A stretch of DNA of 64,000 nucleotides from Candidatus Laterigemmans baculatus (GTDB taxonomy: Bacteria; Planctomycetota; Planctomycetia; Pirellulales; Pirellulaceae): the NCBI RefSeq assembly GCF_010367455.1, contig NZ_WRPR01000026.1, forward strand, positions 1 through 64,000. Direction: 5' to 3'. Each line of letters starts with the position of its first letter. Positions within the stretch are counted from its first letter, which is position 1. The notes under the pieces were generated by a model that saw only the letters and a list, made by a program, of their open reading frames with translations, did not search any database and had not been told where the DNA came from. Below, piece by piece: positions 25,881 to 45,235 of this stretch. The position numbers and the translations under genes are program-made.

Positions 25881-26567
25881 TTGGCTGTCAGTCCCTCGAC
25901 CGCAATCCATTATCAGCAATCGGATCCCGACGTGCGGTTGATGCTGCGCGTGCGGGACGACGATGCGGCTGCGTTCGAGGAGCTGGTGCGGCGGTACCAA
26001 GGGCGGCTGGTCCGGCTGATGGAGCATTTGGGGCCCCGGCGGGATCTGGCCGAGGACCTCGCTCAGGACACGTTCCTGCGAGTCTACCGGGCGCGCAAGC
26101 GGTATGAGCCGGGGGCCAAGTTCAGCACCTGGCTATTCACGATCGCCGGCAACGTCGCCCGCAATGCGGCCCGCGCCCAGGGGCGTCGCCGCGAATTGAG
26201 CGAAGTCGACAGCCCGTCGAGTCCCTCCGGGAGCCAACCGACGGCGCTCGAAGGGCTGGCGCTCGAGCAGAGCGGATTGATGCCGGCGCGGCAAATCGAA
26301 GGGGCCGAACGGGCGGAGATCGTTCGGCAGGCGATCCAGTTGCTGGGCGAGCGGCAGCGGATGGCGCTGGTCCTCTCGAAGTTCGAGGGGATGAGCTACA
26401 TCGAGATCGCCGAGGCCATGGAGCTCTCGACCAAAGCGGTCAAATCGTTGCTGAGCCGCGCGCGGGTCAACCTGAAAGAGCTGTTGCAATCCTATATCGA
26501 GCCCGAACTCCCTGAGGGAGGGGCGACCGAGTCGGGGCGGTTCCCAAACGTGAACGCGAGCGATTGA
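25881..26567 (+). CDS. ECF RNA polymerase sigma factor
   Basis: A 228-residue sigma-70 family protein of the ECF type. Region 2 is at about residues 20-95 (DLAEDLAQDTFLRVYRA, then KFSTWLFTIAGNVARNAARA). A polar linker follows, then region 4 at about 150-215 (LSKFEGMSYIEIAEAM, with the helix-turn-helix STKAVKSLLSRARVNL). The start appears to be TTG 25881, with GGGG about nine bases upstream. No ATG suits region 2. It is followed after one base by a putative anti-sigma gene, so the two are translationally linked and presumably form a membrane-signalling pair. Confidence 0.92.
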   Translation: MAVSPSTAIHYQQSDPDVRLMLRVRDDDAAAFEELVRRYQGRLVRLMEHLGPRRDLAEDLAQDTFLRVYRARKRYEPGAKFSTWLFTIAGNVARNAARAQGRRRELSEVDSPSSPSGSQPTALEGLALEQSGLMPARQIEGAERAEIVRQAIQLLGERQRMALVLSKFEGMSYIEIAEAMELSTKAVKSLLSRARVNLKELLQSYIEPELPEGGATESGRFPNVNASD

Positions 26568-26568
26568 G

Positions 26569-28086
26569 ATGCTAGGCACGCACGATGACGACGCGCCGGT
26601 GGCGGAAATCGACGAGACGCTGGTCGCCTACCTCGACGGAGAGTTGAGCGAAAGCGAGCGGCAGAGACTCGAAGATCGACTGGTCCGCGAAGCCGATCTT
26701 CGCCGCCGGCTGACGGAGTTGCAGAGCGGCTGGGAGATGCTCGACCACCTCCCCCCGGCCCACGTGACCCACGATTTCGCCCGAACCACCTTGGAAATGG
26801 TCGCCGCCAGCACGTCGCAGGCGCTCGAAGTCCAGCGGCAGCAGCGACCGTGGCGGCTATTGAGCCGCGTGTTGCTGATCGCCCTGGCCACGCTGCTGAT
26901 GGCCGCTGCCGGATTCGCCCTGGTCGAGTCCTTGGAGCGACTTCGCTACCACCGGCAACTCGCCGACTTGCCCTTGGCCGAACACCTCGACGCTTACCAG
27001 GCGGAGGTCGATCTCGAACTGATGCAGCAGTTGGCCGAGGATCCGCAGTGGAACGAGGCGATGCAGTTGGCCGCCGACGCCGGAGGGCTGGTCGTCCCGG
27101 TGTCGCTCGGGCTGGCTGAGATGGGACGCGAGGAGCGGGCCGCGGCGCTCCCCCGGCTCGATCCGGCCGACCGCCGCCGCTTGACCAGCCAGTGGGAGCG
27201 GCTGCAATTGCTGACCCCCGAGCAATTGACCAACGTCCGCCGCCGCGCCGCAGCGGTCCAAGAGCAGCCGCGACCCGACGTGGTGCTGCGGACGATGAAG
27301 GAGTACGCCAGTTGGTTCGCGTCGCTGCCCCCCGAGAAGCAAGAACGGATCGTCACCGCCGAGGATCCCCGCGGCGCGATCCTCGAAGAGGTCCAGCAGA
27401 GCGCCCTCGGCTGGGTCCAGAACTACGGGCTGGTGCTCGGCGAGAACGATCGCGAGCTGATCTATGAGGCGCTGAAAGTGATCGCCCGGGATCGCCTCGC
27501 CTGGGCCGACGAGCACGACGTCTGGTCCGACCGCCGGCTGGGCTTTCTCAAGGATCTGCGCGACCGCTACCGACGAGCTGGCAGTGAGGAGAGCTCCCTC
27601 ACGCCCGAGGAGTTCCTGCTCGGAGCCATGGCGGCGCGGGTTTCGCTGCGGAGGGGGACACCCGGGGAGGGAGAGCGGCGAGCTCCGCCGGAAGCGGGGC
27701 CCGAAAAGGAGCCCGAAAAGCAGCCCGAGGAGAACTCCGAGGAGATTTCCGAGGACGGCTCTGGTCGTCGCCCCTGGACGGTTCTGTTCGGGCCTCCCAC
27801 GGCCGAAGAGCTGGCGGCCATCGAAGGGGTGATCAGCAACAAGGCGCTGCTGATTCTGGATGCCGCTTCGGGGTCTGCGGAGGAGCGGCGCGAGGCGCTT
27901 TGGCGGTGGTGCGTGGTGATCATTCGCTCCAGATCGCCCGCCACCAACAGCCCCGAAGGAATGCTCAACCGCTACCTGGCGATGGAGCCCGACGAGCGGG
28001 AGCTGCTCGACCTGCAACCTCCCGGGGAGATCTTCGACGAGCTCGGCGATCGGCGGCGGAATCGGTTCGGCGGCGGCCGACCGTAG
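26569..28086 (+). CDS. Putative membrane anti-sigma factor with large sensor part
   Basis: A 505-residue protein whose N-terminus (DETLVAYLDGELSESERQRLEDRL) has the anti-sigma zinc-finger-like opening, but without the HxxxCxxC zinc ligands. One transmembrane helix lies at about residues 98-122. The roughly 380 residues beyond it should be extracytoplasmic, ending in an acidic, Glu-rich linker (EPEKQPEENSEEISEDG) and a short globular tail. The gene starts one base after the sigma stop, the classical sigma/anti-sigma arrangement. The extracytoplasmic part has no family I recognise. The role as anti-sigma is inferred from position and topology. Confidence 0.75.
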   Translation: MLGTHDDDAPVAEIDETLVAYLDGELSESERQRLEDRLVREADLRRRLTELQSGWEMLDHLPPAHVTHDFARTTLEMVAASTSQALEVQRQQRPWRLLSRVLLIALATLLMAAAGFALVESLERLRYHRQLADLPLAEHLDAYQAEVDLELMQQLAEDPQWNEAMQLAADAGGLVVPVSLGLAEMGREERAAALPRLDPADRRRLTSQWERLQLLTPEQLTNVRRRAAAVQEQPRPDVVLRTMKEYASWFASLPPEKQERIVTAEDPRGAILEEVQQSALGWVQNYGLVLGENDRELIYEALKVIARDRLAWADEHDVWSDRRLGFLKDLRDRYRRAGSEESSLTPEEFLLGAMAARVSLRRGTPGEGERRAPPEAGPEKEPEKQPEENSEEISEDGSGRRPWTVLFGPPTAEELAAIEGVISNKALLILDAASGSAEERREALWRWCVVIIRSRSPATNSPEGMLNRYLAMEPDERELLDLQPPGEIFDELGDRRRNRFGGGRP

Positions 28087-33648: not shown

Positions 33649-34785
33649 ATGTACCACATCGAGCGCACCGATGACCTCTCGGGGTTAATGGCCGAGTCGG
33701 CCGCCTGGGACGACCTCAGCGGCGGAGTCCCACTCCGCGAATCGGCCTGGCTGGGCAATTGGTGGGCGGTGTACGGCCGGGGACTGGAGGCTTACGTGGT
33801 CACGGTCCGCGATCGCGACGCAGCGCTCTGCGGATTGCTGCCGCTGTATCGCCTGAAGACCGCCCGCGAGGGACGGACGCTCTCGGCGATGGGGGACGGA
33901 ACGACCTGTACCGACCACTTTTCGCTGCTTGCCCGCGAGCGCGACTCGCAGGCGATTGCGGCGGCGGTCGGGCAGTGGTTGGCCCGGGCCAGCCGCGACG
34001 CGCGGGACGGCTGGGACTTGATCGACATCGACGGCATCGTCGGCGGCGATCGGACGGCGGCGGCGATGACCGCGGCTCTCTGCGGCGAAGGGGCGACGAG
34101 CCATGCGAGCTCTCGGATGAGCACGTGGATCAAGGACACCAGCGATGATTGGGAGGCCCACCTGGCTCGGCTGAGCAAGACGCATCGCCGCAAGACCCGC
34201 CAGCACCGGAAAAGGCTCGAGGCCGGCCGCGAATTCTCCCTCCGGATCGCAGCGAGCAAGGAGGAAGTTCGCACCGACCTGAACCAGTTGATGGATTTGC
34301 ACCAGCGGCGTTGGACGAGCGTCGGCGAACCCGGCTCGTTCGCCACGCTCGAGAGTCGGCAGTTCCTGCACTCGACCGCGCAAGCTCTCTTCGACCGCGG
34401 CCAACTGCAATTGGCTTCGATCGTGGTCGACGGCGAGACGGCCGGCAGCGAGCTGCGGATCATCGGTCGCGACCGCATGATGTACTGCTACTGCACGGGT
34501 ATGGACCCCGCGTTCGCCGATCTCGAACCGGGCCGGCTGCTCAACATCCAGGGGCTGGTTTACGCCTACGAGCAGCAGCTCCGCGGCATCGACTGCCTGC
34601 GTGGCGACGAACCCTACAAGGCGCGGTTGCTCGCCGAGCCGCGACCGTTGATCCGCCTGCGGATCGTCGCTCCCTCGCTGCTGCCGCGGCTGCGGCACGC
34701 CGCGTGGCTAACCCAGTTCGAACTCAAGCAGTTCCTCCGCCGACGCACCGGCCGGAGTGTCGTGCAAACCCTCAGCCTCGCTTGA
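33649..34785 (+). CDS. CelD/BcsL-type acetyltransferase (GNAT fold)
   Basis: A 378-residue protein of the Acetyltransf_6 group. The N-terminal half (LRESAWLGNWWAVYG, LCGLLPLYRL) is followed by the basic KTHRRKTRQHRKRLE segment. The C-terminal GNAT-like half has GQLQLASIVVDGETAGSELR, MMYCYCTGMDPAF and PGRLLNIQGLVYA. Such proteins are often found in polysaccharide or lipid modification loci; the acceptor here is unknown. ATG 33649 is chosen over TTG 33631. The gene ends 14 bases inside the convergent PP2C gene. Confidence 0.85.
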   Translation: MYHIERTDDLSGLMAESAAWDDLSGGVPLRESAWLGNWWAVYGRGLEAYVVTVRDRDAALCGLLPLYRLKTAREGRTLSAMGDGTTCTDHFSLLARERDSQAIAAAVGQWLARASRDARDGWDLIDIDGIVGGDRTAAAMTAALCGEGATSHASSRMSTWIKDTSDDWEAHLARLSKTHRRKTRQHRKRLEAGREFSLRIAASKEEVRTDLNQLMDLHQRRWTSVGEPGSFATLESRQFLHSTAQALFDRGQLQLASIVVDGETAGSELRIIGRDRMMYCYCTGMDPAFADLEPGRLLNIQGLVYAYEQQLRGIDCLRGDEPYKARLLAEPRPLIRLRIVAPSLLPRLRHAAWLTQFELKQFLRRRTGRSVVQTLSLA

Positions 34786-36367
34786 GCACGACCGCGGTGC
34801 GATCGCTCGTTCCGCGTCCCGCTTGCACCGCTTCCTTGCGGATAGCCGAGAGGATTCGCTCGGGGCCGGCGGCCAGCGACGCTCGAGTCAGATCGGCCAG
34901 CCGCTGTTGGTTCAGCCGTGGCCCCGAGAGATCCGAGGCAGAGAGGTCCCCAGCAGAGAGCTCCCCGGCGGAGCCGGTGACCAAACCCGGCGTGTAGGCC
35001 AGCAGCGTCTCTCCGCCGGTCAACTGCAGCCGCGAGACCCGCGGCTGCAGATCGATCTCCGACCCCAGCGGTTGGCTGCGGTGGACCAGCGGGCGGTAGC
35101 CGTAGCGGCTGACGATGATCCCTTCGAGCTTTCCGGCCGATGCCAGCGAGCCTTCGCCGGTCTGCGGATTGATCTGGGCGTAGAGCAACGAGACGAGCTG
35201 GTCGCCGGTGTTGGTCTGCCAAAGGGTGTCGCCGATCCGGCGGAGCATCTGACCGGGATCGTGCCGGTAATTCGAGTGCGATTGCCAAGCCGAACGAGCG
35301 GTCGCTGCGATCATCGCCGCATCGAGTCCCGCGGCGTGCGCTTCGGCGAGGACCAGGGCGAGCATGCCGTCGGGGAGCACGTCCCAGTGGTACCAGCTGG
35401 CGGCCAGGGCTTGCGGGCTCTCGGTCCAGCCCGAAGTCTGCCAGTTCTCGTCGAGCGGAACCGCCAGGGGCTGCTGGCGTTGTTGCCAGGCGGCCGCGTC
35501 GCGGAGCGGTCGCACGGCGCGGTTGGCCGCGGCCATCCGTTCGGTCAGGGTGTCGCTGGTCAGCCGCGAGGCCAGCAGCGATGCGGTCAGCTTGGCCGCC
35601 GCTTTCTCGGCTGCCTGGAATTCGGTCGGTCGGCTGGACCAGAACCACAGCGTTCCGATCGGCGTGTCATCGACCGAGACCGCCACGCAGATCGCCGCAG
35701 CGAACGGTTCGGGACTGCTCCACTCGGGCATCGCCGCGGTGTCGTCGAGCGTGACGACGCTGCCGACCAACGCTTCGAGATCGGCCAGCGAGCCCCGCAG
35801 TTGCCGCGGCGGATGGCTCAACCGACTGGTCGGCAATCCGCTGACCGCTCGCAATTTGAGCTGGCTGGTTTTGTCGTCCAGCAAGTACAACCCGGCCGCA
35901 TCGCAGCGGGTCGCTTCGGCTCCCTCGCGGAGGATGGCCGCGATCGCATCGGCCAACCGTCGCTCGTCGCTCTCCGTGCGGCCGCTTGATTCGCCGCGGC
36001 GACTCGGGTCCGAGGTGACCCGAGCCGCTTCGCTGGCTGCCAAACAGGCTTCCTGGCGGCGGATCGTCTGCTCCGCTTCGGCCAACCGGGAGGTGAGCGC
36101 GGCGGCCGCTTCGGCTAACTGCACCGCCGAGTCGCGGGGGACCGTTGGCAACTCCCCGACGTCATCGCCCGACATCACCGAAGCGGCCCCGACGGTCGCT
36201 CGCACACGGAGCGTCGCCGCACTGCGCTGCCCGTCGACGCACCACCCCGTGGTGTCGGCGAAAACCCGCCAAAAACTGCTGGCCGCGTCAGCTTGGCTCG
36301 GCCGCCGGATGCGGTTGCGGGGTTCGGCGGAGTGCAGACGCAGGTAGTTCGGAATTTCCCTCGACAC
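34772..36367 (-). CDS. GAF-domain PP2C/SpoIIE-type phosphatase
   Basis: A 531-residue protein. The N-terminal region (about residues 25-75) includes FWRVFADTTGW. A helical stretch (80-125) follows, then a GAF domain (about 135-265: EATRCDAAGLYLLDD, FAAAICVAVSVDDTPIGTLWFW) and a SpoIIE-like phosphatase domain (about 320-531: GLDAAMIAATARSAW, SLLYAQINPQTGEGSLASAG, TGGETLLAYTPGLV). It fits an RsbU-like regulator that dephosphorylates an anti-sigma antagonist. Some metal-binding Asp positions are hard to place, so catalysis is unproven. The start is GTG 36367 with GAGG seven bases upstream. A Ser/Gly/Asp linker (SAGELSAGDLSASDLSG) near 470 is a tandem duplication. Confidence 0.82.
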   Translation of the reverse strand: MSREIPNYLRLHSAEPRNRIRRPSQADAASSFWRVFADTTGWCVDGQRSAATLRVRATVGAASVMSGDDVGELPTVPRDSAVQLAEAAAALTSRLAEAEQTIRRQEACLAASEAARVTSDPSRRGESSGRTESDERRLADAIAAILREGAEATRCDAAGLYLLDDKTSQLKLRAVSGLPTSRLSHPPRQLRGSLADLEALVGSVVTLDDTAAMPEWSSPEPFAAAICVAVSVDDTPIGTLWFWSSRPTEFQAAEKAAAKLTASLLASRLTSDTLTERMAAANRAVRPLRDAAAWQQRQQPLAVPLDENWQTSGWTESPQALAASWYHWDVLPDGMLALVLAEAHAAGLDAAMIAATARSAWQSHSNYRHDPGQMLRRIGDTLWQTNTGDQLVSLLYAQINPQTGEGSLASAGKLEGIIVSRYGYRPLVHRSQPLGSEIDLQPRVSRLQLTGGETLLAYTPGLVTGSAGELSAGDLSASDLSGPRLNQQRLADLTRASLAAGPERILSAIRKEAVQAGRGTSDRTAVVLKRG

Positions 36368-39402: not shown

Positions 39403-40023
39403 CGTGGGTCTCCGCGGCTGAGGGGGCCTTTGGGGGTTGCGTGCGTTCGAGAAAAGGAGGCCGGGAAGAAAGCGAGCTGTCGGAGTTAGAGGACGCAGAA
39501 TTCGGGAGCGAGGTTCAGAAAAAAACCGGGGACCCGAAGGTTTCGTGTCTCGCAGAAGAGCAACCACCGCGCCGTAGACTCGGAAGGCTGGCACGATTGT
39601 TCCATAACTGCCTTTGGTTCAACGACTTAAGTTTTTTAGGTAAGGTGCCGGTGTGGATGCCATGCTGCCGAATGGACGCACCCTTGTCGTTATTCGTCCA
39701 CAATTCGGGCAAATTGGCACTCGCGCGGCGAGCGGAGAGGTCGCCAATCGATCTGTGTTCCCGTCGCCGCCCTTGTGCCCCTGTTTGTGTGATCTAAATC
39801 CACTTTAGTCAAGGCCAGTGCGAAGGCGATGGTTCGGTGAAGCGAATCGCGCAAGTTAAGGCAAATTTTCCGCTTCCCATTTTCCGCCCGCGTTCTCCCA
39901 AGATCCCCGCCGCCCCGGCGAAATTCTCTCTGTTCGGCCGCATCGTTCTCCATTGCGTCAGGGGTGACCGGCGCGTGCGGCCCAGCGAGCCCTAGAGCAC
40001 ACCTTCCCCACGGGAGACAAACC
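39403..40023. other. Long leader region upstream of the kinase/sigma cluster
   Basis: Over 600 bases with no convincing gene. The part from about 39590 to 39860 is clearly more AT-rich than its surroundings (CGACTTAAGTTTTTTAGG, then ATCTAAATCCACTTTAGTC). It is the likely place for the promoter of the signalling cluster that starts at 40024. GGGAGAC lies seven bases before that ATG. Confidence 0.5.
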
Positions 40024-40827
40024 ATGTTGAAGAAACTCATCGTCGGCGGCACCCTCGCTGTCTTGCTCGGCGGAGTCGCCCTGAGCACCGGGCTGGGGAG
40101 TTACGTCCGGACTGCGGGCGGTTGGATCCAGCAGACGGCGAAAGATTCCGTGCCGCTCGAGTGGGAGATCAAGCGGGCGCGGCAGATGATTGCCGACCTC
40201 GATCCGGAGATCACCACCAACGCCAAGCGGATCGCTCACGAAAAGATCCAGGTCGCGCGGCTCGAATCGGAGCTGGAGCGGACCACCGAGCGGCTGGCTG
40301 ACGCGCAAAGCGACATCCAGCGGCTCCGTTCGGACCTCGAGCAGGGCGATTCGATGTTCGTCTACTCGGGCAAGACCTACACCTCGGCTCAGGTCCGCGA
40401 CGATCTCGCCCGCCGCTTCGAGCGTTACAAGACGCGGAAGGAAACCGCCGATAAGCTCCAGCAGATGCTCACGGCTCGCGAAAACACGTTGGCCGCCGCC
40501 CATGACCGGATGGACGCGATGCTCTCGGCCAAGCGGCAGTTGGAAGTCGAGATCGAGAACCTGCAGGCCCGCTTGGCGGCGGTCCGAGTCGCTCAGACCA
40601 GCAGCCAACTGGCGCTCGACGACAGCGCGCTCTCGCGGACTCGCGAATTGCTCGACGAGATCGAGACTCGGATCGATGTCGAAGAGGAAGTGACGCACGT
40701 CGGGGCCGAGTATTTCGGCGGCATCGAACTCGATGACAGCGACGAAGGCGAATTGCTCGACGAGATCTCGAGCTACTTCGACGAGGACGAAAGCAAGTCG
40801 CTCGCCTCGATCAAGATCGAACGCTGA
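40024..40827 (+). CDS. Membrane-anchored coiled-coil protein
   Basis: A 267-residue protein. An N-terminal hydrophobic helix (about residues 4-22) anchors or exports it. Residues 40-120 and 135-225 form two long coiled coils (EKIQVARLESELERTTERL, KETADKLQQMLTARE), separated by FVYSGKTYTSAQV. The C-terminus is acidic (DDSDEGELLDEISSYFDED). It is reminiscent of PspA-like coiled-coil proteins but without the family sequence. It leads a cluster with FHA-like, kinase and sigma genes 134 bases downstream, so it may be a structural partner of that system (inference). Confidence 0.75.
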   Translation: MLKKLIVGGTLAVLLGGVALSTGLGSYVRTAGGWIQQTAKDSVPLEWEIKRARQMIADLDPEITTNAKRIAHEKIQVARLESELERTTERLADAQSDIQRLRSDLEQGDSMFVYSGKTYTSAQVRDDLARRFERYKTRKETADKLQQMLTARENTLAAAHDRMDAMLSAKRQLEVEIENLQARLAAVRVAQTSSQLALDDSALSRTRELLDEIETRIDVEEEVTHVGAEYFGGIELDDSDEGELLDEISSYFDEDESKSLASIKIER

Positions 40828-40961
40828 GACGGTAGACTTTGGTCCGTCCGGGGCGAAAGAATTCCTGCTGTCGAAGGGTTGCGACCGTGCTCACTTCTCT
40901 CCACGAATCGAAAAACGCCCACTCAGCGAAAACCACAGGGAGTGTCGGAAGGATGGAGCCG

Positions 40962-41699
40962 ATGGCTGCTCGGTGGCTGTTGTGGGTCGATGGCGTGGGA
41001 GGTTATTTGATGCTCCCGGGCGACGACTGGACGATCGGGGGCCCAGGGAGCAATTGGGGCCTCGGCAGCAATTGGGGCCTCGGAAGCAGTGGGGTTCCCG
41101 CGAGCGGCGGAGAACTCGGCCGCGCCGAGGAAGCGGAGATCTGCGTCCAAGGGGACCTCTCGGCCCGCGAAGCCTGTTTGCGGCGGCTCGGGGGCGACTA
41201 TGTGTTGCAGCCGTTCGCCGCGGCACTGCTCGGCGACCGCCGACTGCACCGCCCGACGCCGCTCCGCGACGGCGATCGGATCACCTTCGCGAGCCGAGCC
41301 GCTTCCTCGCGGCTGGTGGCCGAGCGTGGAGGGGCCGCGGCAGGAAGTGCGGCAGCCGGGAGGGTGGAAATGGCGGGAGTCCGGTTCAGCTTTGCGAAAC
41401 CGCACCCGCTCAGCTCCTCGGCTCGGTTGACGCTCCTCAGCCGCCACCGCGTCCGTCCGCGTTGCGATGCGATTATTTTGCTTGCCGACACCTGCATTCT
41501 CGGCCCTTCCCGGACGTGCCACATCGTCGCTCCGGCGGCCGAGAGCGAGGTCGTGTTGTTGTTCTCCGCCGGCCGGTGGTGGTGTCGCGGGATGGGAGAG
41601 ACGAACGTCGACGGAGAACCCCGGCAGGGCCGGTTCGAGCTGGTCCCCGGGACTCGCGTCGAATCGGGTGGCATCGCTTTCACGCTGGAGGCCGTATGA
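40962..41699 (+). CDS. FHA-like protein coupled to the downstream kinase
   Basis: About 245 residues. The pattern LWVDGVGGYLMLPGDDWTIGGPG, then SAREACLRRLGGDYVLQP and PTPLRDGDRITF, matches the beta-strand order of an FHA (phosphothreonine-binding) domain. The usual Gly-Arg-Ser core is not clear. A second FHA-like half follows (CDAIILLADTCILGPSRTCHIV, then LVPGTRVESGGIAFTLE). A tandem duplication SNWGLGSNWGLG lies near residue 32. ATG 40962 has GGAAGG about nine bases upstream. The stop overlaps the kinase start as ATGA, so the two are translationally coupled. Confidence 0.72.
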   Translation: MAARWLLWVDGVGGYLMLPGDDWTIGGPGSNWGLGSNWGLGSSGVPASGGELGRAEEAEICVQGDLSAREACLRRLGGDYVLQPFAAALLGDRRLHRPTPLRDGDRITFASRAASSRLVAERGGAAAGSAAAGRVEMAGVRFSFAKPHPLSSSARLTLLSRHRVRPRCDAIILLADTCILGPSRTCHIVAPAAESEVVLLFSAGRWWCRGMGETNVDGEPRQGRFELVPGTRVESGGIAFTLEAV

Positions 41700-43822
41700 C
41701 CCCAATCGATACAATGGAAGCACAGGCAACTTCCCTGTCCCCCTCCCCGTCCCCCGAGAAGCACCGCGGCATGAAGCTCGAGCCCCACGGCATGAAGTTC
41801 ACCTACGCCAGTGGTGCCAAGCCGCTCGCCGGGTTCACGATCAAGCGAGGCATCGGCGTCGGCGGGTTCGGGGAAGTCTATTTCGCGGTCAGCGATGCCG
41901 GGAAAGAAGTGGCGCTCAAACGCGTTCAGCGGAACCTGAACGTCGAGCTCCGCGGCGTTTCCCACTGCCTGAATCTCAAGCACCCCAATCTGATCTCGCT
42001 GTTCGACGTCCGCTACGACGAGGCCGGTCAAGCCTGGGTGGTGATGGAGTACGTCGCTGGCGAGAGTCTCCGCTCGGTCGTCGATGGTGCTCCCGGTGGG
42101 ATTGGGGAAGCGGAAACCCGTCGCTGGTTTGCCGGGTTGGCCGCTGGCGTGGCCCACCTCCACGACTCGGGGATCGTCCACCGCGACCTCAAGCCGGGGA
42201 ACCTGTTTGATGACGATGGGATCGTCAAAATCGGTGACTACGGGCTGAGCAAATTCATCTCCTGTTCGCGCCGCGACGGGCACACCGAAAGCGTCGGGAC
42301 CTTTCACTACATGGCCCCGGAGGTCGGTCGCGGAAATTATGGGCGCGAGATCGATATCTATGCGCTCGGCATCATCCTCTACGAGATGCTGACCGGGACC
42401 GTGCCGTTCGACGGGGAGAGCAGCCACGAAATCATCATGAAACACCTGACGGCGAACCCCGACCTGAGCGGCGTCGCCGAACCGTACCGGAGCGTCATCT
42501 GGCAAGCCCTGCAGAAAAATCCGACCGCCCGGCAGCAAACCGTCCAGCAAATGATCCGCCCGCTGGGAATCGAAATCGACGAGCACGGGATGGCGCGGCT
42601 CGCCCCTGGGTTTTCAGCCCCCCAGTTTTCAGCCCCCGGGTTTTCAGCTTGTGGTGCGGCAGAACCCGTCTTCCAGGGCGTTGCGGTTGCCGACCATGGA
42701 CGAGCTGGAGGAGGCTCGCAAGCGTCCCCCGGAATCCATTTCTTCTCCGGGAATGAGAGCGACGCGGACGCCCCGGCGGGAGTGCAGTTCGGGGAAGTTC
42801 GCTACCATCCAACGGCTGCCGCGGTCCTCACGCCTGAAGAGCCGTTGGCACGCTCGTTCCGCTCAGGGCTCGCTCGCTGCCGCCAGTGGTGGGGCGGCCT
42901 CGAAGCCTTCCCCGGAACCCGCATCATCCTGCTCATCTTGGGGCTCTGCCTGTTCATTTTGAACATCGAATGGCTGTTGCCGTTGATGGCCTTTCTGGCG
43001 GTGCTGTACGTGCCGTACTACATCATCCGAGCGATGACGTTGAGCGTCTCGCGGCAGCCGAGTTTTGCCGAAGCGCACCATGTGGCGGTCGCTCGCCAGC
43101 AACGTCCCCGACCGCTCTCGGCCAAGCAGTGGCGACAGCGGCGACGCGGCGAGCTGGCGACCAAGCGTCCGCTGGTCCGCGTTGCCGAACTCGGCGAATC
43201 GCTCACGACCGCCGGATTCGCCGCGGCGGCGCTGGCGGGACTCGCTTTTCTGGTAGGGCATTACCGAGGAGTCCCCGCAACCAGTACCGCGGTGGCTCCC
43301 TTCGTTTGGTCGGCCGCGATCGCCTTGCTCGCCGCCGTCGGTGTGCTGGTGCTCGGCAAGCTCTGGGAACGCACGCCGGGCGGTGGGCTGTCGCGACGGG
43401 TGGTGCTGCTCGGGATCGGTGCCGCGGTTGGGGCGGCGGCCTTTGTGCTCGCCGATTTCCTGATGATCCCACTCGATCAACGACTCGCGCGGGATATCGA
43501 TGTGACCGAGCTTCCCTCGAGCATGTATAGCGCGAGCGGCGTTCCGCGAATCGCAGCCCTGATGGCGCACTTCGCACTCCTGCTCGCCGGACTCCGCTGG
43601 TGGCGGTCGGCCGATCCGCTCCGCCGTTCGCGGTTCAGCGTCTGGGCGGTCGCCGTGGCAGTGGTCGCCAGCTGGGGGCTGCATCAATTGCTCCCCGTTC
43701 CCCAGCCCTGGGGCATGATCACCGCCGGGATTCTCGCCGCAGTGATCCAAATCGCCACCCCGTGGGAGAATCCTCGCCAGCGGCTCCGCGACTCCGATCC
43801 GACCCACGCCCCCACGGTCTGA
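41696..43822 (+). CDS. Hanks-type Ser/Thr kinase with about eight C-terminal membrane segments
   Basis: A 708-residue kinase. The cytoplasmic domain spans about residues 45-305: glycine loop GIGVGGFGEV (52-61), Lys75 in ALKRV, HRDLKPGN (162-169), and GTFHYMAPE. The DFG triplet is DYG (181-183), a tolerated variation. A linker with repeated FSAPQFSAPGFSA follows. The C-terminal half is membrane-embedded, with about eight hydrophobic helices (IILLILGLCLFIL, then PLMAFLAVLYVPYYII, and others to about 690). There is no extracellular sensor domain. The start is ATG in the ATGA overlap. It stands ten bases from a bitopic protein gene and upstream of an ECF sigma factor. Confidence 0.9.
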   Translation: MTPIDTMEAQATSLSPSPSPEKHRGMKLEPHGMKFTYASGAKPLAGFTIKRGIGVGGFGEVYFAVSDAGKEVALKRVQRNLNVELRGVSHCLNLKHPNLISLFDVRYDEAGQAWVVMEYVAGESLRSVVDGAPGGIGEAETRRWFAGLAAGVAHLHDSGIVHRDLKPGNLFDDDGIVKIGDYGLSKFISCSRRDGHTESVGTFHYMAPEVGRGNYGREIDIYALGIILYEMLTGTVPFDGESSHEIIMKHLTANPDLSGVAEPYRSVIWQALQKNPTARQQTVQQMIRPLGIEIDEHGMARLAPGFSAPQFSAPGFSACGAAEPVFQGVAVADHGRAGGGSQASPGIHFFSGNESDADAPAGVQFGEVRYHPTAAAVLTPEEPLARSFRSGLARCRQWWGGLEAFPGTRIILLILGLCLFILNIEWLLPLMAFLAVLYVPYYIIRAMTLSVSRQPSFAEAHHVAVARQQRPRPLSAKQWRQRRRGELATKRPLVRVAELGESLTTAGFAAAALAGLAFLVGHYRGVPATSTAVAPFVWSAAIALLAAVGVLVLGKLWERTPGGGLSRRVVLLGIGAAVGAAAFVLADFLMIPLDQRLARDIDVTELPSSMYSASGVPRIAALMAHFALLLAGLRWWRSADPLRRSRFSVWAVAVAVVASWGLHQLLPVPQPWGMITAGILAAVIQIATPWENPRQRLRDSDPTHAPTV

Positions 43823-43832
43823 GAGAACTTCC

Positions 43833-44594
43833 ATGCACGCATCCTTTCACTCAGCCCGCCGCTGCGAGTCGCATCCGCAGCCGACGACTCGCTCGACCAC
43901 GCGGGCACCGGCGCGGGTAGCCCTCGCGGCCCTGGCGTTGCTCGTCTTCCTTGGCAGTGCAGCGGCCTCTAGTGCAGCGGCCTCTGATGGGGCGGCCGAA
44001 CCGCTCGAACCCTCCGCGGCGAAGACGGCGGAGCCGAAGGCGACCGAGCCGCGGCCGCTTTCGGTCGCTCCGCTCAATCAAGTCACCTATCCAGAGGACC
44101 GACCCGAGTGGGTCGACGCGCCACCTTCGCTCGGCTCGTTCCGCGCGGGCGATCTGGGCGAAGGGAGTGAAGCGGGGGCGGTCGACGTGTGGCCGGTGAA
44201 ATCGTTGCTGCGACCGACAGCCGAAGAGGCTCGGGAGAGTCTCGAAGTGCAGATTCAGGGAGCCGCGGCGGCCTATGCGGAGCGGTTCCTGGGAACGGAT
44301 CGGGCCCAGCAGCTTCCGCCTTCGGTGCCGCTCGTGCCGGAGCTGGAGACGTTGCCCGCGGCGGATCGTTATGCGGGAACGGCGACGCTCGGCGACCAGA
44401 CGGTGTACGAAGAGGCGGCGCGACTTCGCTTCGACGAAGCGTATCGCCAGCGGCTGGCGAAACAGTGGCAGCAGGCCGAAGTCGGCTCGCGGCTGAAGTG
44501 GCTCGGAGTCGCCGGCGGTGGAGGCTTGGTCGTTCTGCTCTCAGCCACCGGACTCGTTCGCCGAACCGCCCGCCGCAGGACGAGCGCGGAATGA
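43833..44594 (+). CDS. Bitopic secreted-domain protein of the kinase/sigma cluster
   Basis: A 253-residue protein. An N-terminal signal-like helix (VALAALALLVFLGSAAA) is followed by a low-complexity Ala/Ser region with a short duplication (SAAASSAAASDGAAEP). A polar domain of about 130 residues comes next (DRPEWVDAPPSLGSF, then SLEVQIQGAAAAYAERFL). A C-terminal transmembrane helix (GVAGGGGLVVLLSATGLV) ends in a basic tail RRTARRRTS. Either end could anchor it. It overlaps the sigma gene by ATGA, suggesting equal production with it. It could serve as an anti-sigma-like sensor or kinase partner. No family is recognised. Confidence 0.72.
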   Translation: MHASFHSARRCESHPQPTTRSTTRAPARVALAALALLVFLGSAAASSAAASDGAAEPLEPSAAKTAEPKATEPRPLSVAPLNQVTYPEDRPEWVDAPPSLGSFRAGDLGEGSEAGAVDVWPVKSLLRPTAEEARESLEVQIQGAAAAYAERFLGTDRAQQLPPSVPLVPELETLPAADRYAGTATLGDQTVYEEAARLRFDEAYRQRLAKQWQQAEVGSRLKWLGVAGGGGLVVLLSATGLVRRTARRRTSAE

Positions 44595-45235
44595 CTGAAA
44601 TGAGCGAGATGACCGAGATCAGCCAAGCCTGGATCGAGCGGATCCGCCAGGGCGATTCCGCGGCATGGGAAGAATTGATTTGCCGCTACGAGGGGCGCCT
44701 GCTGGCGTTTGCCGAGAGCCGCATTCACAACCGCGCCGCCGCCGAAGACATCGTGCAAGAGGCGTTCATCGGGTTTCTGACCAGCCTGCCGAACTACGAC
44801 GGCGGCCGCCCGCTGGAGAGCTATTTGTTCTCGATCTGCGCCTACAAGCTGACCGATTACCTGCGGCGCGAAGGGCGGCGGCCGGCGATCAGCTTTCACG
44901 CTTCGCGGTCCAGCGACAGCCCCTGGGAGCTGGCCGGACCGGGCCGCGCTGCCAGCTCGATCGCCCGCAGCGGTGAGCGGCGAAACCTCGAGGAGCATGC
45001 GGTCCGCGATGGGGTTGCCGAGCAGATCCAGCGATGGAAGGAGAAGGGAGACTGGGTCAAGCTGCAGTGCCTCGAACTCCTCTTTGTCCGCGGCGAGAAC
45101 AACAAAGATGTCGCCGCGGAACTGGACCTCAGCGACCAGCAAGTCGCCAACTATAAGAGTGATTTCCAGATTCGCTTGCGATCGATCATCCGCCGCATGC
45201 AGCTCGACGAAGAAGTCTTCCCCGAGCTCGAGTGA
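44591..45235 (+). CDS. ECF-type sigma factor of the kinase/FHA cluster
   Basis: A 214-residue sigma factor. Region 2 is at about residues 15-100 (AWEELICRYEGRLLAFAESR, AAAEDIVQEAFIGFL, LFSICAYKLTDYLRR). Region 4 is at about 150-205 (LQCLELLFVRGENNKDVAAEL, helix-turn-helix LSDQQVANYKSDFQIRLRS). The linker contains several Ser residues (HASRSSDSPWE) that could be kinase targets, which is inference. No canonical anti-sigma gene follows. The cluster instead pairs it with a Ser/Thr kinase and an FHA-like protein. The start ATG overlaps the stop of the preceding gene. Confidence 0.88.
   Translation: MTEMSEMTEISQAWIERIRQGDSAAWEELICRYEGRLLAFAESRIHNRAAAEDIVQEAFIGFLTSLPNYDGGRPLESYLFSICAYKLTDYLRREGRRPAISFHASRSSDSPWELAGPGRAASSIARSGERRNLEEHAVRDGVAEQIQRWKEKGDWVKLQCLELLFVRGENNKDVAAELDLSDQQVANYKSDFQIRLRSIIRRMQLDEEVFPELE

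Follow-up and report, generated by a model that had tools for sequence, protein, structure and literature searches.

A conserved planctomycete operon of membrane kinase and ECF sigma factor genes, with a predicted link to flotillin genes

How might an extracytoplasmic function (ECF) sigma factor be controlled if no anti-sigma factor is encoded beside it? This question is raised by positions 40024-45235 of the first 64,000 nucleotides of contig NZ_WRPR01000026.1 from Candidatus Laterigemmans baculatus, the stretch that we analysed as a whole and call the window. Five genes lie there head to tail on the + strand, and no classical anti-sigma gene is present at the cluster; on both points the initial annotation of this DNA was right. 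The genes are:

40024-40827, + strand: COIL, 267 amino acids, a single N-terminal membrane segment followed by a coiled coil
40887-41699, + strand: FHA-like gene (FHA), start codon uncertain
41696-43822, + strand: KIN, Hanks-type Ser/Thr kinase; the conserved start may be M33, nucleotide 41792
43833-44594, + strand: BIT, protein with two transmembrane (TM) segments, matching no known family or fold
44591-45235, + strand: SIG, ECF sigma factor

The five genes make up a signalling operon of ancient origin, which nearly every member of the Planctomycetia carries and which is not local to the window. We propose that a membrane kinase module controls SIG in a membrane/envelope-stress system with feedback through the operon's own promoter, a model to which we give an even chance of being right.

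Conservation of the five-gene order

The initial annotation had named loss of the gene order in relatives as one of the findings that would refute its proposal, and this order recurs across the class far beyond chance. COIL-FHA-KIN-BIT-SIG is found in 30 of 40 Pirellulales regions, as far as the contigs extend, with FHA or BIT escaping detection in a few of the 30. Moreover, COIL, KIN and SIG are in order in all 20 clusters from other families, a set picked for having COIL or FHA close to SIG. Where both coordinates were listed, 28 of 32 Pirellulales genomes and 45 of 55 others had COIL and SIG linked and in order. Since the gene order holds across the class, the five genes are supported as one conserved functional unit.

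The genes are also widespread, and they are lost together. A strong SIG homologue was found in all but 3 of 60 sampled Pirellulales genomes (its named close relatives are Pirellulaceae), and in a sample of 198 Planctomycetia genomes SIG was present in 183, COIL in 176 and FHA in 163. At the thresholds used, the three SIG-less Pirellulales genomes also lacked KIN and COIL. COIL and SIG were both absent from 10 of the 198 genomes, where independence predicts fewer than 2 (Fisher P 7e-8, uncorrected for relatedness and assembly gaps). COIL length is nearly constant in relatives, at about 265-273 amino acids. The two ATGA overlaps held to couple the FHA-like gene to KIN and BIT to SIG exist in the window (41696-41699 and 44591-44594), but they are not conserved: among relatives, true 4-nucleotide ATGA overlaps of this kind occur in L047 alone.

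In the other 10 of the 40 Pirellulales regions, which we call split genomes, SIG is encoded elsewhere and COIL-FHA-KIN and the BIT gene are still together. Beyond Planctomycetia SIG is patchy; four genomes outside the class have the five-gene order (COIL unseen in one), and others have the order FHA-KIN-SIG-COIL. Three loci from other planctomycete classes (L180, L183 and L184) are rearranged: there COIL lies downstream of SIG, and the kinase has diverged further. A second COIL paralogue was seen in genome G052 (L108, 3928-4731), with FHA, KIN, BIT and SIG not nearby in L108, and second COIL matches also occur in G021, G115, G127, G165 and G217. In Rhodopirellula baltica (L235, 6162-7916), SIG is not linked to the kinase gene; it comes after the gene for a large protein resembling a cyclic-nucleotide-binding regulator. 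An attempt to map the cluster to the stress-induced R. baltica genes RB138/RB140 and RB1789/RB1790 (PMC2754498) was given up, SIG not being near the kinase there and no gene being assigned.

A promoter element before the operon and membrane genes

By plain counting of paired 4-mers upstream of COIL, 27 of 61 operons had AAGA-N15-CGAA; in shuffled sequence any pair reached at most 6. A weight matrix, trained on the same operons that it scored, placed CCAA[GT]AT-N15-GCGAAT before 58 of the 61, in 56 of them with exactly 15 nucleotides between the cores, and 2-5 of 61 shuffled controls reached its cut-off. Both strands of the 64-kb window hold a single match above 17:

39898-39926, + strand: predicted ECF-type promoter CCAAGAT-N-GCGAAATTC before COIL, score 27.4

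In split genomes the element still precedes the four-gene kinase operon.

In its strict form, the element recurs at orthologous sites within one genus. These sites precede an operon of NfeD-like and flotillin genes, an SPFH gene pair (PF01145), a DUF2383 gene and BIT-SIG, and single sites precede one DUF1232 gene and one rhomboid gene. Note that the NfeD-like label reflects a position before flotillin and a hydrophobic N-terminus, Pfam giving no hit. We then scanned the upstream regions of 50 flotillin loci selected by protein similarity and not by motif, although a few of them had first been noticed through the motif. Scores of at least 18 were reached at 24/50 loci, compared to 0/50 opposite strands and 0/150 shuffles, and the element was found at 21 of 23 Pirellulales NfeD-flotillin loci.

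In Bacillus subtilis, FloA and FloT are under the ECF factor sigma-W, which responds to membrane stress (PMC8581546); SPFH genes are commonly found in one operon with NfeD genes (PMC2636767). The element sites at flotillin loci thus predict a membrane-stress regulon like that of Bacillus sigma-W: as the sigma-W regulon includes FloA, FloT with NfeD partners and PspA-YdjGHI, so NfeD-flotillin and SPFH operons are predicted SIG targets. This likeness would apply to relatives, in which the element precedes flotillin and SPFH genes, the window genome having no close flotillin, and it presumes that SIG recognizes the element. The two systems also differ. Sigma-W is held by the anti-sigma factor RsiW, whereas the five-gene system has a kinase module instead, and the sigma-W promoter, TGAAAC-N16-CGTA, is unlike CCAA[GT]AT-N15-GCGAAT.

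Another sigma factor could read the element, and the flotillin genes would then belong to the regulon of that factor and not to that of SIG. Planctomycetes carry many ECF factors, the neighbourhood of a separately encoded SIG lacks the element, and genome G015 lacks the system and yet has loose forms of the motif. However, nearly all SIG operons are preceded by the element at a single fixed spacing, which is what autoregulation by an ECF factor would lead one to expect, and the loose pattern in G015 is non-specific, because coding sequence is matched as well. We therefore regard a different reader as improbable. For the same kind of reason the looser motif was rejected as a regulon finder in the window genome: its counts are also high in the system-less G015, with many matches in coding sequence.

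The module proteins and candidate control sites of SIG

KIN has a complete Hanks domain (Pkinase, Pfam E 5.6e-48) with conserved VALK (carrying the invariant Lys), HRDLKPGN, DYG and APE motifs, DYG in place of DFG being a conserved feature of the family. Judged by its sequence, it is an intact Hanks-type Ser/Thr kinase with a multi-pass C-terminal membrane domain. The initial annotation had counted about eight membrane helices; the multi-pass character stands, whereas hydropathy counts 5 segments, some long enough for two helices, so that eight are possible. Conservation starts at M33, and the annotated start is uncertain.

The FHA-like protein falls below the threshold of Pfam PF00498 (16.7 bits, cut-off 20.7), a family that matches 17 of 23 of its relatives. 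An AlphaFold2 model (predicted local distance difference test score, pLDDT, 82) searched with Foldseek gave tandem FHA folds, with many FHA-domain hits at probability 1.00, and on this model the protein has the FHA beta-sandwich fold. The top hit was the B. subtilis type VII secretion system core (9qks), and EssC (5fwh) was also listed; the E-values were weak. The type VII secretion ATPases EssC and YukBA, whose FHA domains are degenerate, likewise have two FHA folds in tandem, but the window protein stands alone beside a kinase and a sigma factor and has no ATPase domain.

FHA had been suggested as the reader of phosphorylation in this system, and this role lost ground. Gly, Ser, Glu and Gly occupy the positions of the Arg (GR), the Ser and His (SRxH) and the Asn (NG loop), so that Arg, His and Asn are lost in the window. 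Across 64 family members the phosphothreonine-contacting Arg position is Gln in 35 and Arg in 11. With a degenerate phosphothreonine pocket in the window protein and GQ instead of GR in most of the family, a scaffold role appears more likely than phospho-reading. Separately, in one split genome (L046, 7379-8086) a canonical FHA protein, with GR, SRRH and NG all present, is encoded directly before SIG and is a possible replacement partner.

BIT combines an N-terminal TM segment and one or two C-terminal ones with an RPxW motif and a small alpha/beta domain; the window copy has two TM segments and an RPxW/PEW motif. It evolves fast, and an iterative profile recovered it in 58 clusters. Neither Pfam nor a PDB fold search gave a match. 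In most genomes the BIT gene immediately precedes SIG, and its product has TM helices; BIT could thus be an unconventional anti-sigma factor holding SIG at the membrane until release by the kinase. We consider this very improbable. The window copy extends only about 11 residues beyond its last TM segment and, for this reason, its sequence is not that of a normal anti-sigma factor; nor did the Pfam and fold searches give an anti-sigma domain, so that BIT and SIG do not resemble a classical ECF/anti-sigma pair. Moreover, BIT stays with the kinase and not with SIG in split genomes, which also weakens the BIT-SIG interaction expected by the initial annotation, and in two clusters (L060 and L073) KIN adjoins SIG and BIT was not found.

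SIG matches Pfam Sigma70_r2 (E 1.9e-13) and, above cut-off over residues 25-190, TIGR02937 (sigma70-ECF); in region 4 there is no Pfam hit and a weak helix-turn-helix/GerE match. On these matches it is an ECF sigma factor, and it has a single orthologue per genome. Two of its motifs bear on control:

44738-44761, + strand: region 2.2 motif AAEDIVQE, with conserved acidic residues E52 and D53
44945-44980, + strand: linker motif R.ASSIARSGER, with S122, S123 and S127 as candidate phosphorylation site

That ECF factors linked to Ser/Thr kinases are known in planctomycetes, as the initial annotation stated, is borne out by the groups already listed, ECF59, ECF61, ECF62 and ECF217 among them (PMC8999054). 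One comparison is with ECF43 (Vibrio parahaemolyticus EcfP/PknT and Xanthomonas citri EcfK/PknS), which shares an ECF gene beside a gene for a Hanks-type membrane kinase, without an anti-sigma factor. In EcfP, phosphorylation supplies a missing charge (PMC8999054). The adjacent kinase gene, as in ECF43, would suit a switch of this type, in which KIN phosphorylates SIG region 2.2 and provides the negative charge needed for binding to RNA polymerase. However, region 2.2 reads STTA, QTTA or QATE in ECF43, whereas that of SIG keeps its acidic residues: in 70 sequences the E52 position is E/D in 67 and the D53 position D/E in all 70, with no conserved Ser/Thr at the latter. The ECF43-type change of DxxD to uncharged residues with a phosphorylatable Thr was thus not found in these sequences, which have AAED. 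EcfP-type activation of SIG is accordingly unlikely in the extreme, the sequence having largely refuted it already.

The linker is a better place to look. EcfK is phosphorylated by PknS in its linker (PMC13147305), and in the 70 SIG sequences Ser or Thr is conserved at S122 in 96%, at S123 in 89% and at S127 in 86%. The serines of HASRSSDS, the target first put forward, are conserved in 20-51%, and by this comparison S122, S123 and S127 are the better candidate phosphorylation targets. Compared to the kinase-linked ECF groups, SIG stands out by these conserved linker serines and by three extra conserved partners (COIL, tandem FHA and BIT).

A proposed membrane-stress circuit and its meaning

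In our model, COIL, the tandem-FHA protein, KIN and BIT would form a membrane-bound sensing and kinase module, whose kinase output would set SIG activity directly, perhaps through S122, S123 and S127, or via a partner. Active SIG would then read CCAA[GT]AT-N15-GCGAAT promoters, among them the one before its own operon. In relatives it would drive NfeD-flotillin, SPFH-pair, DUF2383, DUF1232 and rhomboid genes; membrane-maintenance families account for several of these. The model is favoured because the gene order is conserved, COIL and SIG are lost together, and an element of fixed spacing stands at the operon and at membrane-maintenance genes. It is further favoured by the intact kinase, the conserved linker serines and the sigma-W/FloA-FloT and EcfK-linker precedents. 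Conservation, co-occurrence, the element and its presence at target genes were taken from sequence; from them we infer SIG as the reader of the element, the kinase as the controller of SIG and membrane stress as the signal.

Several observations weigh against this model. SIG lacks the charge-less region 2.2 typical of phospho-activated ECF43, and in split genomes the surroundings of SIG yielded no element. At flotillin loci, family f23 has weak or variant sites and f22 has none. The window genome has no close flotillin by protein similarity search, and apart from the operon promoter it yielded no regulon site that was convincing; because a close flotillin is lacking, the operon promoter is the one site supported for the window organism. 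The f23 variant (CAAATCAT...CGAAT or CGAAC) was seen in a similar place upstream of flotillin at L407, L412, L414, L416, L418, L420 and L422, and perhaps reflects drifted promoter specificity.

The main rival reverses the direction of control: COIL-FHA-KIN-BIT would be an effector switched on by SIG, the kinase would target other membrane proteins, and SIG would be controlled otherwise or by its own level. The four-gene operon of the ten split genomes, which keeps the element and sits away from SIG, fits this explanation. So does genus g61, where an extra element directly before BIT-SIG could let SIG amplify itself without the kinase. Against it, the SIG linker is unusually conserved and bears serines, and SIG has no other regulator gene as a conserved neighbour in those split genomes that were examined. 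We hold it to be unlikely, though to be taken seriously.

A stronger form of the proposed control of SIG by the kinase module, to which we give somewhat less than an even chance, is a phylum-deep membrane-stress system. Here an ECF sigma factor that drives membrane-maintenance genes, those for flotillin included, would be controlled by a membrane module made up of the kinase, the tandem-FHA protein, the coiled-coil protein and BIT, and not by an anti-sigma factor. BIT would represent a new family of sensors, and the conserved sigma linker, not region 2.2, would be the point of control.

Other genes of the window stand apart from the cluster. A gene for a GAF-SpoIIE type phosphatase lies about 4 kb upstream (34772-36364, - strand); this gene, a DUF4112 gene and two others were rejected as members of the system, their homologues being absent from every cluster region retrieved from relatives. 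At 25881-28083 (+ strand), an ECF sigma gene of the ordinary kind, in which Pfam identifies regions 2 and 4, is followed by a gene whose N-terminus is like that of a zinc-finger anti-sigma factor (PF13490, sub-threshold), a classical pair.

The literature searched, with subscription literature outside the search, gave no description of the five-part layout, the promoter or the flotillin link. What is new here is the ECF-type promoter before the operon, shared in relatives with flotillin and other membrane genes. The membranes of planctomycetes are unusual, and these bacteria carry dozens of ECF factors and kinases without a known function; a cluster of unknown function now gains a testable role. 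If the model is true, it would be a case of ECF control without an anti-sigma factor or a region 2.2 phospho-switch. A signalling operon that is near-universal and single-copy, has a defined promoter and is predicted to govern flotillin genes would make the control of membrane homeostasis in these bacteria directly testable.
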